Assembly: GCA_024655885.1 (NCBI GenBank)
Contig: JANLFN010000015.1
Location: 1-57,891, forward strand
Reading direction: 5' to 3'
Origin: Eubacteriales bacterium
GTDB taxonomy: Bacteria > Bacillota > Clostridia > Acetivibrionales > JANLFN01
DNA length: 57,891 nucleotides
Shown in pieces: positions 18,831 to 55,743 of this stretch (position 1 is its first letter; every line of letters begins with the position of its first letter). Below the pieces are notes generated by a model. It searched no databases and was not told where the DNA came from. It saw only the letters and a program-made list of their open reading frames with translations. A program made the translations under genes and the position numbers.

Positions 18831-18932
18831 GCTTGAAAATACGGATTGAAGATTATGGGAATAAAACCGCCTTTCAAGTATGAAGGGGCCGGTGGGCCCA
18901 TTTTGCGCGTGCAACTATTCGCCAAAACACTA

Positions 18933-18960
18933 TTGCATAATCATTGTTTTGTGTTATAAT
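18933..18960 (+). promoter_or_regulatory. SigmaA-type promoter of glnA
   Basis: TTGCAT (18933-18938) and consensus TATAAT (18955-18960) are 16 bases apart. Transcription would start near 18967, leaving a leader of about 160 bases before glnA that contains the ANTAR-type hairpins and a terminator. Confidence 0.75.
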
Positions 18961-18971
18961 TAAGACACTGA

Positions 18972-19051
18972 AAAATGATTATAATAACATTTTACAGGAC
19001 ATTGGCGTTCTCAAGCAGGTTTAATTGGACATGGCTTGGGTGCGTTTTTTT
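18972..19051 (+). promoter_or_regulatory. ANTAR-type anti-terminator and terminator in the glnA leader
   Basis: A hairpin AGGAC/GTTCT (18996-19011) closes the six-base loop ATTGGC. The loop has A at position 1 and G at position 4, the signature recognised by ANTAR proteins. Its right arm overlaps the left arm of a terminator, CTCAAGC (19010-19016) pairing with GCTTGGG (19034-19040), followed by seven T's. The two folds exclude each other. An upstream AAAATG/CATTTT hairpin (18972-18993) could be the first hairpin of the pair, but its ten-base loop does not match the motif. The ANTAR protein is encoded just after glnA. Confidence 0.7.
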
Positions 19052-19129: not shown

Positions 19130-20464
19130 ATGCTGGAATATACAAAGGAGGATATTCTCAGACTGGTTAAGGAGCAGGACGTGAAATTTATCCGTCTGCA
19201 GTTTACAGACATCTTCGGTATTTTAAAAAATGTTGCAATTACAGTAGAACAACTTGAGAAGGCACTGGACAACAGGTGCATGTTTGACGGTTCGTCCATA
19301 GAGGGGTTTGTGAGAATTGAAGAGTCGGATATGTACTTGAGACCGGACGTAAACACCTTTGTCATATTCCCGTGGAGACCTCAAACCGGAAAAGTGGCAA
19401 GATTGATCTGTGATGTTTTCAACGCCGACGGAACCCCCTTTGAGGGTGACCCCAGATATGTTTTGAAGCGAGAGTTAAAAAAGGCTTCCGATATGGGGTA
19501 CAGTGCTTTCAATGTGGGACCGGAGTGCGAGTTCTTCCTGTTTCTGACGGACAGCGAGGGCAATCCTACAACCATCACCCATGACAATGCAGGCTATTTT
19601 GACCTGGGACCCGTGGACCTGGGGGAAAATGCCAGGAGGGACATGTGCCTGGCACTGGAGGAAATGGGCTTTGAAATTGAGGCTTCACACCACGAGGTTG
19701 CCCCGGGACAGCATGAAATTGATTTTAAATACAATGATGCTTTGACAGCGGCAGAGGCCATCCTTACCTTTAAGCTGGTGGTTAAGACAACCGCCCAAAG
19801 GCATGGTTTGCATGCTACTTTCATGCCCAAACCCATTTCCGGCATTAACGGCTCAGGCATGCATACCAATGTATCCCTGTTTAAAGACGGTAGAAATGCA
19901 TTTTACGATGAAAAGGATCCCCTCCAGCTGAGCCAGGATGCGTACTGGTTTATGGGGGGAATCATGAAGCACATGCGGTCTATTTCCGCCCTGACCAACC
20001 CTCTCGTAAACTCTTACAAGCGGCTGGTACTGGGATATGAGGCACCGGTTTATATCGCATGGTCGGCTAAAAACCGCAGCCCGCTGATAAGGATTCCCGC
20101 AGAAAAGGGCATGTCCACAAGGCTTGAGCTGAGAAGCCCCGACCCGTCCTGCAATCCCTATCTGGCCCTCGCAGTGATATTGGCCGCCGGTCTTGACGGC
20201 ATCCGGAATAGGATACAGCCTCCTCCGCCGACGGATAAGAATATATTCCAGATGACACAGGAACAAATAAAGGAGGAAGGCATCGGCACGCTTCCGTCGA
20301 ATTTAAAGGAAGCCATTGATGAGATGAGCAGAAGCGAGCTGGTAAGGGAAGTGCTGGGGGACCATATATTCTACAAATACATTGAAGCAAAGAACGAAGA
20401 ATGGAACGATTACAAGACAAAAGTCAGCCAGTGGGAAATTGACCAGTACCTGACCAAGTACTAA
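19130..20464 (+). CDS. glnA: Glutamine synthetase, type I
   Basis: This 444-residue enzyme makes glutamine from glutamate, ammonia and ATP. Family motifs in order are [54 protein letters not shown] and [18 protein letters not shown]. The length and the absence of the adenylylation tyrosine region place it in the GS-I-alpha group regulated by feedback and transcription rather than by adenylylation. ATG 19130 is eight bases after AAAGGAG; an upstream GTG overlaps that site. The leader suggests control by regulated termination, probably through the ANTAR protein encoded 38 bases downstream. Confidence 0.97.
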
Positions 20465-20502: not shown

Positions 20503-21078
20503 ATGGAATCAGCTAGAATAATAGTGGCCATGAACAACGACACGTCAATTAACAAAATGAGAGCTATACTGACCGAAAACGGCTATATAGTTGTGGATTT
20601 GGCCAAAGACGGCCATGAATGCCTGAGAAAAATAAGGCTGTTTAGGCCTGACATTGTGATCGTGGATTTCAACCTGCCTTTGACAAACGGATACGAGATT
20701 GCAAAGGTTGCTATTGAGGATAATATTTGTGACGTAATCCTTATCACTGCAAACAGCCAATATGATTTTGCCGACGAAATAAAATCCGACAGCGGTTTTG
20801 TCTGTATGGAAAAGCCTTTGAGCAAGGTATCCCTTATCAACACCATAGAATTGATGGTGAAGAGCAAGAGGAAAATAAGGCAGTTGGAAAAAGAAATAGA
20901 AGAGTTGAAAGCCAATCTGGATACCCGGAAGGATGTGGAAAAAGCGAAGGGGCTTTTGATGAAACACCTGAACTTAACCGAAGAGGAGGCTTTTAAAAGG
21001 ATCCAGAAGCAGAGCATGGACCGGGGGATCCCCATGAGGGAAATCGCAAGGGCAATTATACTGGCCTATGCTATATAG
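20503..21078 (+). CDS. ANTAR-domain response regulator (nitrogen-control antiterminator)
   Basis: This 191-residue protein has an N-terminal receiver domain (1-120) with the phosphorylatable Asp in IVIVDFNLPLTNG and the conserved Lys in MEKPLS. A coiled-coil linker (about 122-145) leads to a C-terminal ANTAR domain (about 140-191) that contains KAKGLLMKHLNLTEEEAF. ANTAR proteins bind paired six-base-loop hairpins in nascent RNA and stop terminators from forming. It lies directly downstream of glnA, whose leader has such a hairpin overlapping a terminator, so it very likely senses nitrogen status and controls glnA. No histidine kinase is adjacent. Confidence 0.9.
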   Translation: MESARIIVAMNNDTSINKMRAILTENGYIVVDLAKDGHECLRKIRLFRPDIVIVDFNLPLTNGYEIAKVAIEDNICDVILITANSQYDFADEIKSDSGFVCMEKPLSKVSLINTIELMVKSKRKIRQLEKEIEELKANLDTRKDVEKAKGLLMKHLNLTEEEAFKRIQKQSMDRGIPMREIARAIILAYAI

Positions 21079-21230: not shown

Positions 21231-21983
21231 ATGCCGGCGAAGGGAAGGCCTTTGATAGGTGTAACGCCTTGGTACGACTATCCTAAGGATACAGCCTATA
21301 TTAAAAGCGGGTACTGTGAAGGGGTCGTTGAAGCGGGAGGACTCCCTGTGCTTATGCCGTTTACGGCAGATGAAGACATTTTGACCGACGTGATTGACAG
21401 GCTGGACGGTTTTCTTGTTTCAGGGGGTCCGGACCTTGACGCCAAGTATTATAATGAAGAGAACATGCCGTATAACGGCGACATTTCACCCGAAAGGGAC
21501 ATGATGGAATTATTCGTCGTAAAAAGGGCTGTGGAGGTTAATAAGCCCGTGTTCGGAATATGCAGGGGGATTCAGGTGATGAATGTAGCCCTGGGAGGTT
21601 CGCTATACCAGGATATATATTCCCAGGTAAAGGACAGGGAGCTTATCCAGCATTCACAAGCTGCGCCTAAATGGTACCCCACCCATGACATCCGCATTGA
21701 AAAGGGCTCGAAGGTGTGGTCTTCCTTTAATAGGGACCGGGCAAGGGTAAATACGTTTCACCATCAGGCCGTAAAGCAGGTTGCTCCGGGGTTTAAGGTC
21801 ACATCCAGGTCTTCGGACGGGATTGTAGAGTCAATAGAGCTGGAGGGCCATATTTTCGCGGTTGGGGTGCAGTGGCACCCGGAACTGATGTGGCAGAAGA
21901 ACCCGGAGTTTTTAAATATATTCAGGAGCTTTGTGGAGTGCTGTCGAGTCAAAGGGGACGGTTCTTCAATGACTCAAAAATAA
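21231..21983 (+). CDS. Class-I glutamine amidotransferase-like hydrolase (peptidase C26, PuuD family)
   Basis: This 250-residue enzyme is of the gamma-glutamyl-GABA hydrolase family. The nucleophile elbow FGICRGIQVMN supplies Cys, and GVQWHPEL supplies His and Glu. GFLVSGGPDLDA is the usual glycine-rich oxyanion region. GGAGGAGG precedes the ATG at 21231. The last 10-15 residues (RVKGDGSSMTQK) are encoded by the edge of a GGGGACGG repeat element, so the natural C-terminus has probably been replaced. The substrate, gamma-glutamyl-GABA or another gamma-glutamyl compound, cannot be decided. It follows the glnA-ANTAR pair, which fits a role in glutamine metabolism. Confidence 0.85.
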   Translation: MPAKGRPLIGVTPWYDYPKDTAYIKSGYCEGVVEAGGLPVLMPFTADEDILTDVIDRLDGFLVSGGPDLDAKYYNEENMPYNGDISPERDMMELFVVKRAVEVNKPVFGICRGIQVMNVALGGSLYQDIYSQVKDRELIQHSQAAPKWYPTHDIRIEKGSKVWSSFNRDRARVNTFHHQAVKQVAPGFKVTSRSSDGIVESIELEGHIFAVGVQWHPELMWQKNPEFLNIFRSFVECCRVKGDGSSMTQK

Positions 21984-25223: not shown

Positions 25224-25506
25224 CAATTATATTTTCACAACCAAAACGATGAAGGAATCAAGATGCATGCGAATGCCAAAGAGAGCCGGTGGCTGGTGCA
25301 AACCGGTGCAGGAGGTGCATGTATGGCTCGTTCCGGAGTTCCATTGCTGAAAATGCAGTAGGCAATGGCGGCGACCACGTTATAGTCAGGGTATGCTTCA
25401 TACCCAATGAGATCATACCGAGAGGTATGTGAAACAGGGTGGTACCACGTAGGATGTTTCCCCTCCGTCCCTGCAACTTAGTTTTGCAGGTATGGAGGGG
25501 TTTTGA
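25224..25506 (+). promoter_or_regulatory. T-box riboswitch controlling ilvB, probably leucine-specific
   Basis: The T-box sequence AGGGTGGTACCACG (25436-25449) is perfect and precedes a large terminator, CCCCTCC..CTGCAA/TTGCAG..GGAGGGG with TTTT. Upstream is Stem I with the AGAGA motif near 25276 and helix GCATGC/GCATGT. Two short hairpins follow, GGTATG/CATACC and CATACC/GGTATG. The specifier bulge lies on the 3' side after GCATGT, in ATGGCTCGTTCC. A CTC (Leu) codon fits there and matches an operon containing leuA, but the exact codon is an inference. Uncharged tRNA would bind and allow read-through into ilvB. Confidence 0.9.
25460..25506 (+). terminator. T-box terminator upstream of ilvB
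   Basis: Long two-part stem, CCCCTCC (25460-25466) with GGAGGGG (25494-25500) and inner CTGCAA/TTGCAG, then TTTT. The left arm can alternatively pair with the T-box sequence. Confidence 0.85.
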
Positions 25507-25623
25507 TTTAGTTGGGCAAACACAGGTAAACACGGTTGGTAAGATATTGAGCAATAATTTTGTTATCCCGTTTGAGGCTATGTGGGCCCGGTATCATTTA
25601 ACCCGTGATAGAGGAGTATGGAT

Positions 25624-27252
25624 ATGAGACTTACAGGTGCACAGGCAGTAATAAAAGCGCTGGAAATAGAAGGCGTGGAATACATTTTCGGATATCCCGG
25701 AGCGGCCATATGTCCGTTTTACGACGCGCTGCTTGATTCGGGAATCAAGCACATCCTCACCAGGAATGAGCAGGGGGCTGTTCACGCTGCCAGCGGATAT
25801 GCGCGTGTTACGGGAAAGGTGGGGGTGTGTGTGGCCACATCCGGTCCCGGCGCTACGAATTTGATTACGGGGATTGCAACGGCATACATGGATTCCATAC
25901 CTGTGGTCGCTATTACAGGACAGGTGTCTTCAGAGCTTATAGGGAAGGATGTTTTTCAGGAAGCCGATATCACAGGGGCCACGGCACCCTTTTGCAAGAA
26001 TAACTATCTGGTTAAGAAGGTTCAAAACCTGCCCAGGATCATGAAGGAAGCCTTCCACATTGCCGGAACAGGACGTCCCGGACCCGTGCTCATCGATATC
26101 CCTGTGGATGTCCAGATGAAGGATTTCAATTTTGAATATCCGGAAACGGTGGATATTAGAGGCTACAAACCCACTTACAAGGGACACGCCCTGCAGATAA
26201 GGAAAATTGCGGAGGCCATAGGAAAGGCGAAGGCTCCCGTGATCTGCGCCGGGGGCGGAATAATCAATGCCAATGCCTCCGGTGAACTGGTGGAATTGGC
26301 GGAGAGATGCCGCATCCCTGTGGCCACCACTTTTATGGGCATCGGTTCCATGCCTTCCAGGCATGAGCTGAACCTGGGCATGCTGGGGTCTCACGGCGTT
26401 TACCCGGCGAATTACGCAGTCCATAACGCGGACCTTGTCATAATCCTGGGCGCCCGGGTGGGCGACAGGGCCATGGGAACCGCCAGAAAGATTGCCGAGA
26501 AGGCAAAGATCGTCCATATCGATATTGACCCCGCTGAAATAGGCAAGAACATCGAGGCCACCATACCGGTGGTGGGCGATGTCAGGCTTATATTGAAGGA
26601 CCTGCTTGACATTGTGGCCAAAGGCAATGTGGACAAGTGGAATGAAGCAATTCAAAAGATAAAGAGAGAACACCCGCTGAAATCCGGGCAGGAAAGCGGC
26701 CAGAACTGGGTTAAGCCCCAATATCTGCTTACTTTGCTGTCTGAGATGACAGCAGAGGATGACATCATTACAACGGAGGTGGGACAAAACCAGATATGGG
26801 CTGCAAATTACTATAACGTGAGGAAACCCAGAACTTTTATCTCGTCGGGGGGCATGGGGACCATGGGCTACGGGCTCCCATCCTCGGTGGGCGCTAAAAT
26901 CGGCTCGCAGGGGCAAAGGGTCATTACGGTAGGTGGGGACGGAAGCTTTCAAATGTCCATGCAGGAGCTTGGGACCATAAAGCAGTACAAGCTGGGCATT
27001 AAAATGATCATATTCAACAATTCCAGGCTGGGGATGGTAAGGGAACTGCAGAAGAAGCAGTACAGGGGACGCTATTCCCAGGTGTTTCTGGACGAAAACC
27101 CTGATTTTGTAAAGCTGGTCCAAGCCTATGGCTTTAAGGGAGAGAGGATAACCGTCAACTCTGAGGTAAGAGGGGCTTTGGAGCGCATGCTGGCAGACGA
27201 TACACCGTACCTGCTGGAGTGCATGGTGGACCCGGAGGAACCAACGCTGTAG
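25624..27252 (+). CDS. ilvB: Acetolactate synthase large subunit
   Basis: This 542-residue ThDP- and FAD-dependent enzyme condenses two pyruvates, or pyruvate and 2-oxobutyrate, in the first shared step of valine, leucine and isoleucine synthesis. The catalytic Glu lies in RNEQGAVHAASGYAR. The ThDP metal motif runs from GGDGSFQMSMQELGTI to FNNSRLGMVRELQ. ATG 25624 is seven bases after GAGGAG. The ATG at 25618 is only one base from that site and is unlikely. It is the first gene of an operon with ilvN, ilvC, leuA and cimA and is controlled by the T-box leader. Confidence 0.97.
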   Translation: MRLTGAQAVIKALEIEGVEYIFGYPGAAICPFYDALLDSGIKHILTRNEQGAVHAASGYARVTGKVGVCVATSGPGATNLITGIATAYMDSIPVVAITGQVSSELIGKDVFQEADITGATAPFCKNNYLVKKVQNLPRIMKEAFHIAGTGRPGPVLIDIPVDVQMKDFNFEYPETVDIRGYKPTYKGHALQIRKIAEAIGKAKAPVICAGGGIINANASGELVELAERCRIPVATTFMGIGSMPSRHELNLGMLGSHGVYPANYAVHNADLVIILGARVGDRAMGTARKIAEKAKIVHIDIDPAEIGKNIEATIPVVGDVRLILKDLLDIVAKGNVDKWNEAIQKIKREHPLKSGQESGQNWVKPQYLLTLLSEMTAEDDIITTEVGQNQIWAANYYNVRKPRTFISSGGMGTMGYGLPSSVGAKIGSQGQRVITVGGDGSFQMSMQELGTIKQYKLGIKMIIFNNSRLGMVRELQKKQYRGRYSQVFLDENPDFVKLVQAYGFKGERITVNSEVRGALERMLADDTPYLLECMVDPEEPTL

Positions 27253-55240: not shown

Positions 55241-55600
55241 AAAGGTCCTCCTTCAAGCGAATTAATGCTGCCATCAAAGCAGCGCTTTTTAAGCTTTTGA
55301 GCACATTAAAATTTTGTTATGCTAAAAAGCGCCGGCCTGCTTCACCCTTTTCATCCGGAAAAATCCGCAAATGAAGGGAGCAGGACCGGAATTAGTTTCT
55401 GCAAAGAATTTTTTATTATTCCCGGCCCTCCGGCATGAATGCCGCCGGATCCGGCGGAATTGTGCCCTGCGGCTCTCAAAAGCGCCGGATTGATACCCCC
55501 GTAAAGTAAAAATTTTCACTGGCCAAGGTGAACAAAAGTTAGCAGGATATGTAAATTATTTTGCATTTATTATGTAAATTTTACATGTTATAATAATTTA
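55241..55600. repeat. Intergenic region with a GC-rich palindromic repeat
   Basis: Within AT-rich sequence, 55320-55500 is GC-rich. It contains the perfect palindrome CCGCCGGATCCGGCGG (55442-55457), the adjacent CCGGCAT/ATGCCGCCGG and further CCGG-type arms. A minus-strand open frame of 65 codons crosses it but lacks a ribosome site, and its Arg/Cys-rich product looks like a repeat read as protein. It resembles a dispersed extragenic palindrome. Nothing else is seen before the promoter region of the next gene. Confidence 0.55.
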
Positions 55601-55604
55601 AATG

Positions 55605-55732
55605 CTGAATTCCCTGAAAACTACAGCCAGGGAAGCGGGGGACCTAATCTTTGGGGTAAATTCCGGCGGAATGCCGGAAAGGGTGTCTCTTCTACCTAAC
55701 CCGTCAACTAACCTCGCAAGCGATAAGAGGAG
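55605..55732 (+). promoter_or_regulatory. c-di-AMP riboswitch (ydaO-yuaA leader)
   Basis: The conserved ydaO-class elements appear in order. They are TCCCTG..CAGGGA (P1-type helix), AAGCGGGGGACC, GGGGTAAATTCC with a CCGGC/GCCGG helix, AAAGGGTGTCTC, and the hallmark CCGTCAACTAACCTCGCAAGCG (split here as CCGTCAACTAACC then TCGCAAGCG). A TATAAT lies at 55589-55594. High c-di-AMP is expected to turn off the downstream gene, a typical pairing with cell-wall proteins. The ribosome site of the next gene is at its 3' edge. Confidence 0.9.
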
Positions 55733-55743
55733 GAGTAATTTTT

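Follow-up and report, generated by a model that had tools for sequence, protein, structure and literature searches.

A glnA leader with a single ANTAR-type hexaloop hairpin overlapping an intrinsic terminator: a putative one-hairpin attenuator in a clostridial genome

In the accepted model, antitermination by ANTAR proteins requires two hexaloops in the leader RNA, the first of which (P1) recruits the protein, as described in the parts of PMC3369931 and PMC8934654 consulted here. The glnA leader in the present window, which is the whole analysed stretch of 57,891 nucleotides, contains a hairpin of the ANTAR type directly overlapping a terminator, and raises the question of whether a single hexaloop hairpin could suffice for such control. 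Published observations point in both directions. Induction in the eutP/EutV system was abolished by removal of P1 (Ramesh et al. 2012, PMC3369931) and, in gel-shift experiments of the same paper, binding was lost upon deletion of one stem-loop; both results count against a one-hairpin reading. NasR (PMC7496416) and EutV (PMC8934654) are described as binding single hairpins in vitro, with an affinity about 12-fold weaker in the case of NasR, which again counts against it. In the sections of their paper used here, Walshe et al. 2022 (PMC8934654) reduce the minimal site to one hexaloop, retain a recruiting role for P1 during transcription, allow single-hexaloop sites where a moving polymerase sets no time limit, and ask for single sites to be analysed further by bioinformatics. 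We propose, with a probability of roughly 0.7, that an ANTAR protein controls transcription attenuation in the glnA leader by way of one hexaloop hairpin, without an upstream recruitment hairpin.

The glnA leader and its relatives

The glnA promoter lies on the forward strand at 18933-18960, with the -35 element TTGCAT (18933-18938), a 16-nt spacer and an extended -10 element of the form TG-T-TATAAT (TGTTATAAT, with TATAAT at 18955-18960); transcription is predicted to start near 18967. The first-pass annotation had called it a consensus promoter. The -10 element is indeed perfect, but "consensus" is generous for a -35 element that matches TTGACA at only 3/6 positions, and the promoter is absent from the output of a sigma-70 scan. 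The same arrangement, TTGCAT-16-TGnTATAAT, also precedes 9 of the 23 other single-type glnA leaders described below. It is noted that an inverted repeat, TGCAA-N18-TTGCA, occupies 18910-18937 with its right half inside the -35 element; similar repeats with a spacing of 16-19 occur in 13 of 34 glnA leaders and could possibly be a site of a DNA-binding nitrogen regulator.

The transcript is predicted to begin with an AU-rich 5' leader (18967-18995, forward strand) without conserved structure, in which a hairpin with a ten-base loop (18972-18993) is judged not functional. The single ANTAR-type hexaloop hairpin, AGGAC-ATTGGC-GTTCT, follows on the same strand at 18996-19011 and is assigned as a putative antiterminator from its sequence, covariation and model score. 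Its left arm (18996-19000) and right arm (19007-19011) form five pairs around the loop ATTGGC (19001-19006), which carries A1 and G4. The intrinsic terminator (19004-19051, forward strand), assigned from fold and covariation, has a 5' arm GGCGTTCTCAAGC (19004-19016) that starts within the hexaloop, a 3' arm GCTTGGGTGCGTT (19034-19046) and seven T's at 19045-19051. The left arm of the terminator thus consists of the right arm of the hexaloop hairpin together with the second half of the loop, and since both folds use these same nucleotides, they are mutually exclusive. For the 87-nt leader the predicted folding energy is -22.4 kcal/mol, compared to -14.0 for shuffled sequences (z -3.2; 0/200 as good).

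The terminator is followed on the forward strand by glnA, encoding a type I glutamine synthetase (19130-20464; PF00120 5.4e-138, PF03951 1.6e-33), and by a gene for an ANTAR regulator with a degenerate receiver domain (20503-21078; PF03861 2.3e-22, PF00072 2.4e-14). The hairpin with its A1 and G4, the overlap of its right arm with the left arm of a seven-T terminator, and the ANTAR response regulator encoded after glnA had all been noticed at first pass, and each of them holds, with the qualification that the receiver is degenerate. No known RNA family matched the glnA leader at the gathering threshold of Rfam 15, and a lax scan gave a single match, on the opposite strand, at 17.4 bits where the threshold is 100. 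A leader peptide was considered and rejected: the short frame from 18975 opens about 8 nt into the predicted transcript, which leaves too little space for a ribosome site, and by eye its ATG is missing in some relatives. Two further RNA elements were found elsewhere in the window, a T-box leader (RF00230, 101 bits) at 25240-25475, upstream of an ORF (25618-27252) that resembles acetolactate synthase by eye, and a c-di-AMP riboswitch (RF00379, 86 bits) at 55593-55737.

Matches to the window ANTAR protein at E <= 1e-40 were obtained in 24/58 genomes of the order and in 24/391 sampled genomes of the class, own genome included. glnA adjoins the ANTAR gene in 20 of the 25 loci of the order and in 13 of the 20 outside it; the two genes point apart in three loci (L045-L047). 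These 20 and 13 loci and the window provided 34 glnA leaders with an ANTAR gene close by. Inspected by eye, 24 have the same hairpin and terminator without a clear second hexaloop, although two of them (L014, L015) are imperfect members; four are canonical two-hairpin leaders (L032, L045, L046, L047), three are degenerate (L025, L029, L031), and no such element was recognised in the remaining three (L023, L024, L026). A covariance model, R1, was built on 20 of the 24 single-type leaders (L014, L015, L036 and L039 being excluded). The window leader, itself among these 20 sequences, scores 54.6 bits. With own genome counted, R1 matches occur in 35/58 genomes of the order at E <= 0.01 and, at 1e-4, in 30/391 genomes of the class and 11/398 of the phylum.

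Many of the genes behind the element act in the production, consumption or uptake of glutamine or ammonia. Confirmed at least once each are glnA, glnN, GOGAT, class-II amidotransferase, asparagine synthase, glutamate dehydrogenase, ammonium transporter (one fused to PII), a glutamate-synthase domain protein, peptidase C26, CTP synthase, the small subunit of carbamoyl-phosphate synthase and diaminopimelate epimerase; asnB, pyrG, carA and amt genes are thus among those with the element ahead of them. A PPDK-like protein and an ATP-grasp protein are less obvious members. In the own genome, the amt leader (L002 2587-2640) has the hairpin UAAGU-AAAGGC-GCUUA and a terminator, with an R1 score of only 17.3 bits.

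Several related observations are recorded here. The own-genome glnB-amt leader (L003 ~1831-1920), before P-II and ammonium transporter genes, shows by eye two possible hexaloops over a terminator, GAATTC-CAAGCA-GAATTT and GGC-TGTGAC-GCC, in which G4 is kept and position 1 is C and U, respectively. Three other leaders (L012, L013, L043) have the loops GAAGAC or GAGGAC, with G at position 1; a G1-C6 pair could make a tetraloop of them, and a difference in ANTAR recognition is possible. A peptidase C26 gene follows the window ANTAR gene (21231-21983), and peptidase C26 genes in two relatives (L103, L104; family confirmed for L104) have a weak R1-type leader of their own.

The region upstream of the hairpin

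No second A1/G4 hexaloop hairpin was found upstream in the window glnA leader. A scan for such loops closed by at least 3 pairs within 48 nt upstream of the hexaloop hairpin, with the genes behind the leaders assigned by short motifs, gave P1 at chance level in glnA leaders (3/40 vs 1.36 shuffled; 78/500 as high) and in class-II amidotransferase leaders (0/14 vs 0.46), whereas P1 was frequent in glnN leaders (4/10 vs 0.39; 0/500) and was found in 2/6 amt leaders (vs 0.12; 2/500 as high). The glnN and amt values indicate that the scan is able to detect P1 where it is present. A stricter P1 (at least 4 pairs, two of them G-C, within 100 nt) occurred in 0/40 glnA leaders. With 3 pairs, the scan of 46 leaders gave a slight, non-significant excess (3 vs 1.2 shuffled; 37/300 as high), and that of the 24 glnA-ANTAR leaders was also non-significant (2 vs 0.59; 37/300 as high). 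Two relaxed forms of P1 were rejected. With any base allowed at loop position 1, a weak excess was obtained, with stems of 3-4 pairs (6/40 glnA leaders vs 3.4; 29/300), and a P1 concealed within the terminator was found in 1/46 leaders vs 2.0 by chance. The two-hairpin ANTAR model proposed for this leader in the first-pass annotation thus fails to describe the element.

One alternative that has to be weighed is a canonical two-hairpin element whose first hairpin has drifted, with the ten-base-loop hairpin still acting as P1. A hairpin can be folded at 18968-18997, the ten-base-loop hairpin at 18972-18993 is present in the predicted fold of the leader, and three relatives (L025, L029, L031) have by eye degenerate first hairpins. 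However, the ten-base loop, which had been taken as an unusual ANTAR hairpin, is without a G and so without G4, and its counterpart was not seen in the relatives. The 46-nt stretch with the ten-base-loop and hexaloop hairpins is no more stable than its shuffles (z -0.96; 33/200 as good). No excess structure was found upstream in 46 leaders either, the 35 nt 5' of the hairpin having a mean z of 0.10 compared to -5.28 for the terminators, and columns upstream of the hairpin hold at most 0.13 bits compared to up to 3.6 bits for hairpin columns. In the window itself the predicted start is 29 nt 5' of the hairpin, so that the evidence there is the absence of a hexaloop and not a lack of space.

Many similar leaders elsewhere are, by their predicted start sites, too short for P1. 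A pattern of hairpin plus terminator, in which the upstream sequence was ignored, matched at least 119 loci in public species genomes; all 119 were scanned and grouped by the taxa in their record titles, with four loci left as other or unnamed. Among the matches listed, P1 within 48 nt is at chance in Firmicutes (4/72 vs 3.90 shuffled; one of the four, L204, clearly being a glnN leader with two hairpins) and was found in 2/17 Spirochaete loci (vs 0.88), in contrast to 15/25 in Proteobacteria (vs 1.96; 0/200). Proteobacteria are the classical users of the two-hairpin ANTAR element. P1 with a strong stem within 100 nt was found, among the matches listed, in 4/72 Firmicutes, 0/17 Spirochaetes and 16/25 Proteobacteria. 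A near-consensus promoter, matching at least 10/12 positions with its -10 ending 5-14 nt before the hairpin, precedes 43/72 Firmicutes loci (0.40 shuffled), 6/17 Spirochaete loci (0.03 shuffled) and 0/25 Proteobacteria loci among the matches listed; the four other or unnamed loci listed gave 0/4 for P1 and 2/4 for the near promoter. As a general rule, transcription starts about 7 nt after the -10 element. With the -10 only 5-14 nt ahead, the hairpin would therefore be transcribed first, with no space for P1. In three Blautia glnA leaders (L139, L161, L199), for instance, 7 nt separate TTGACA-N17-TATAAT from the hairpin downstream. ANTAR-type leaders in which the scan did not find P1 also occur outside Firmicutes, in Spirochaetes, where they precede genes of carbamoyl-phosphate synthase (L138, L197) and CTP synthase (L146); two other loci (L176, L179) resemble these cases, judged from the protein start only. 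Taken with these leaders, a drifted P1 appears unlikely.

Both kinds of leader can be found in one genome. In G029, a one-hairpin glnA leader (L011) exists beside a glnN leader that by eye has two hairpins (L109), and a like contrast between glnA and glnN is seen in G001 (L014/L108) and G028 (L015/L107), where the glnA leaders are off-type.

ANTAR genes and the linked protein

An ANTAR domain was detected in 29 of the 30 R1-bearing genomes of the class, compared to 193/391 overall (hypergeometric 7e-9, shared ancestry ignored). In at least 8 of the 21 R1 genomes outside the model, an ANTAR gene lies within 10 kb downstream on the same strand. Among the matches listed in the wider survey, an ANTAR gene was found in the same stretch (within 8 kb) in 20/73 Firmicutes, 3/17 Spirochaete and 14/25 Proteobacteria loci.

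These counts bear on a second alternative, in which a different RNA-binding protein recognises the hexaloop hairpin and the ANTAR gene has no part in the switch. Such a reading would accommodate the 13 of 21 non-model genomes where an ANTAR gene was not seen within 10 kb downstream (four of these lack a listed position), and the R1-bearing genome G169, where no ANTAR domain was detected even at E <= 10 and the leader is of the two-hairpin type. Against it, the loop and stem fit the ANTAR site as defined by SELEX in the portion of PMC7496416 used here (a C:G closing pair, A1 and G4), the element co-occurs with ANTAR domains as given above, and in Proteobacteria, among the matches listed, the same hairpin that follows P1 in 15/25 loci has an ANTAR gene nearby in 14/25. 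We consider another binder improbable.

The own genome encodes three ANTAR proteins. One gene is directly after glnA, one adjoins an ammonium transporter gene, and one adjoins P-II and ammonium transporter genes. The first-pass description of leader and regulator as a self-contained circuit thus goes too far, also in view of the receiver of the linked protein, in which M10/N11 stand in place of the two acidic residues that usually end beta-1. Across 34 glnA-linked proteins, the second acidic position is never an acid and the first is Glu in three; the phospho-acceptor position is Asp in 18 (including the window protein), Glu in 10 and Asn in 6. The missing acidic pair, together with Glu or Asn at the acceptor position of orthologues, makes control by a partner protein likelier than control by a kinase, and no histidine kinase was recognised by inspection among the neighbouring ORFs, most of them without a family scan. 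The window protein would fit the pseudo-receiver class as described in PMC7496416, since, like regulators of the AmiR/NasT type, it combines a receiver lacking the phosphorylation features with an ANTAR output domain; in this it is unlike EutV-type phosphorylated regulators. Compared to EutV (6WSH), with residue roles taken from the relevant part of PMC8934654, the loop-plugging Met is kept in the window protein, but several RNA-contact positions are altered, as Y164F, R168Q, N173D, R175G and R177P (numbering placed by hand), which counts against the one-hairpin proposal. No partner sensor was recognised beside the window ANTAR gene, unlike the case of AmiR/NasT-type regulators. Those regulators have the partner sensors AmiC and NasS.

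Overlapping stems and the proposed switch

The stem of the terminator covaries in the 20 leaders of the model, with 23 cells changed on both sides vs 8.2 shuffled (0/500 as high). The hexaloop stem is 98% paired in these leaders, yet its changes are one-sided only, as would be expected of a stem that shares its right arm with the terminator. In a wider set of 86 leaders, four (L015, L103, L118, L123) were dropped because their inner stem was unpaired or their register shifted, and the 82 retained leaders gave 49 distinct hairpins. Here the hexaloop stem does covary (19 cells with both sides changed vs 7.3 shuffled; 0/500), with 4/5 pairs compensated, so that the refuting outcome named in the first-pass annotation, a six-base-loop stem without covariation, did not occur. 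It should be mentioned that pairing of the three inner pairs was a criterion for retention, so that the count leans to pairing there; of the 19 compensated cells, however, 12 lie at the two outer pairs, to which that criterion did not apply.

A third alternative is a plain constitutive attenuator or processing site, in which the overlap would be fortuitous and the terminator alone would count. In 23/24 single-type leaders the terminator folds more strongly than the hairpin (in the exception, L014, it lacks the usual overlap with the hairpin, and in L015 the hairpin has a mismatch), as such an attenuator would have it. However, covariation of the hexaloop stem argues against this reading, and columns 2-7, that is, the left arm and the first half of the loop, are nearly invariant in 46 leaders although they lie outside the terminator stem. 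G4 is present in 46/46 and A1 in 42/46 of these leaders, a conservation inflated by their having been chosen by eye or by model for hairpin likeness; free of such selection, the hairpin is seen in 24 of the 34 glnA leaders that have an ANTAR gene close by. The plain attenuator is very improbable. It is hardly credible that the missing hexaloop is supplied in trans, by an ANTAR dimer bridging two transcripts or a separate RNA: in the crystal, the hexaloops held by EutV dimers came from two RNA molecules, but Walshe et al. judge such bridging unlikely on kinetic grounds in the same part of PMC8934654.

We therefore return to the one-hairpin attenuator. In the default state, RNA polymerase would form the terminator at 19004-19051 and stop before glnA. 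An active ANTAR protein, most probably the product of the gene that follows glnA, would capture the AUUGGC loop once the hairpin has exited the polymerase, with no upstream recruitment hairpin involved, and would retain the arm GUUCU needed by the terminator, so that transcription could proceed into glnA and the ANTAR gene. The ANTAR gene itself lies behind the switch, which makes positive feedback likely. The nitrogen signal would probably reach the protein by contact with a partner, for which glutamine synthetase and PII are candidates, and not by a kinase. What the sequences show is the anatomy, the mutually exclusive folds, the covariation, a second hexaloop no commoner than by chance and the link to ANTAR genes, whereas binding, antitermination, the nitrogen signal and the partner are inferences from these.

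The element resembles the dual-hexaloop RNAs (eutP/EutV, nasF/NasR, amiE/AmiR) in its A1/G4 hexaloop, its short stem and a right arm that is also the left arm of the terminator, as well as in the nitrogen genes downstream and an ANTAR protein encoded in the genome. It is unlike them in that the window leader has one hairpin and lacks the P1 needed in eut, and in that many similar leaders elsewhere have no space for P1. With no second hairpin found, it falls by definition outside the dual-hexaloop ANTAR RNA family, although its anatomy and gene context suggest that it works alike. ANTAR control of glnA leaders in Clostridia was given as known in the first-pass annotation, and the induction of clostridial GS/GOGAT genes by an ANTAR protein is indeed known. 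A precedent in Clostridium saccharobutylicum is NitR, reportedly the subject of work by Stutz et al. in 2007. As described in the excerpt of PMC6316151 used here, NitR is an ANTAR protein that induces GS/GOGAT genes by antitermination on nitrogen limitation; the window protein is like it in being an ANTAR protein tied to such genes, a comparison by protein type, targets and proposed mode.

A broader reading, for which we see the odds as about even, is that one-hairpin ANTAR antiterminators, often at the 5' end of the transcript, are a widespread form of glutamine and nitrogen control in Clostridia and some Spirochaetes, acting on glnA, glnN, GOGAT, amt-PII, asnB, pyrG, carA and other genes. 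They would dispense with a recruitment hairpin, and the glnA-linked ANTAR proteins, their receivers having lost the phosphorylation pocket, would have to read nitrogen status by way of a partner protein. Among the titles and abstracts listed by searches of an open-access library with few subscription journals, none on one-hairpin antitermination leaders was found.

The element bears on a question left open by Walshe et al. 2022, namely the extent to which single-hexaloop sites are used. Natural leaders in which a single hexaloop overlaps a terminator make the requirement for P1 directly testable, and a few of the genomes concerned also have two-hairpin glnN leaders, which can serve as matched controls. 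Searches based on two hairpins would tend to miss one-hairpin leaders, and the ANTAR regulons of Firmicutes may thus exceed those listed.
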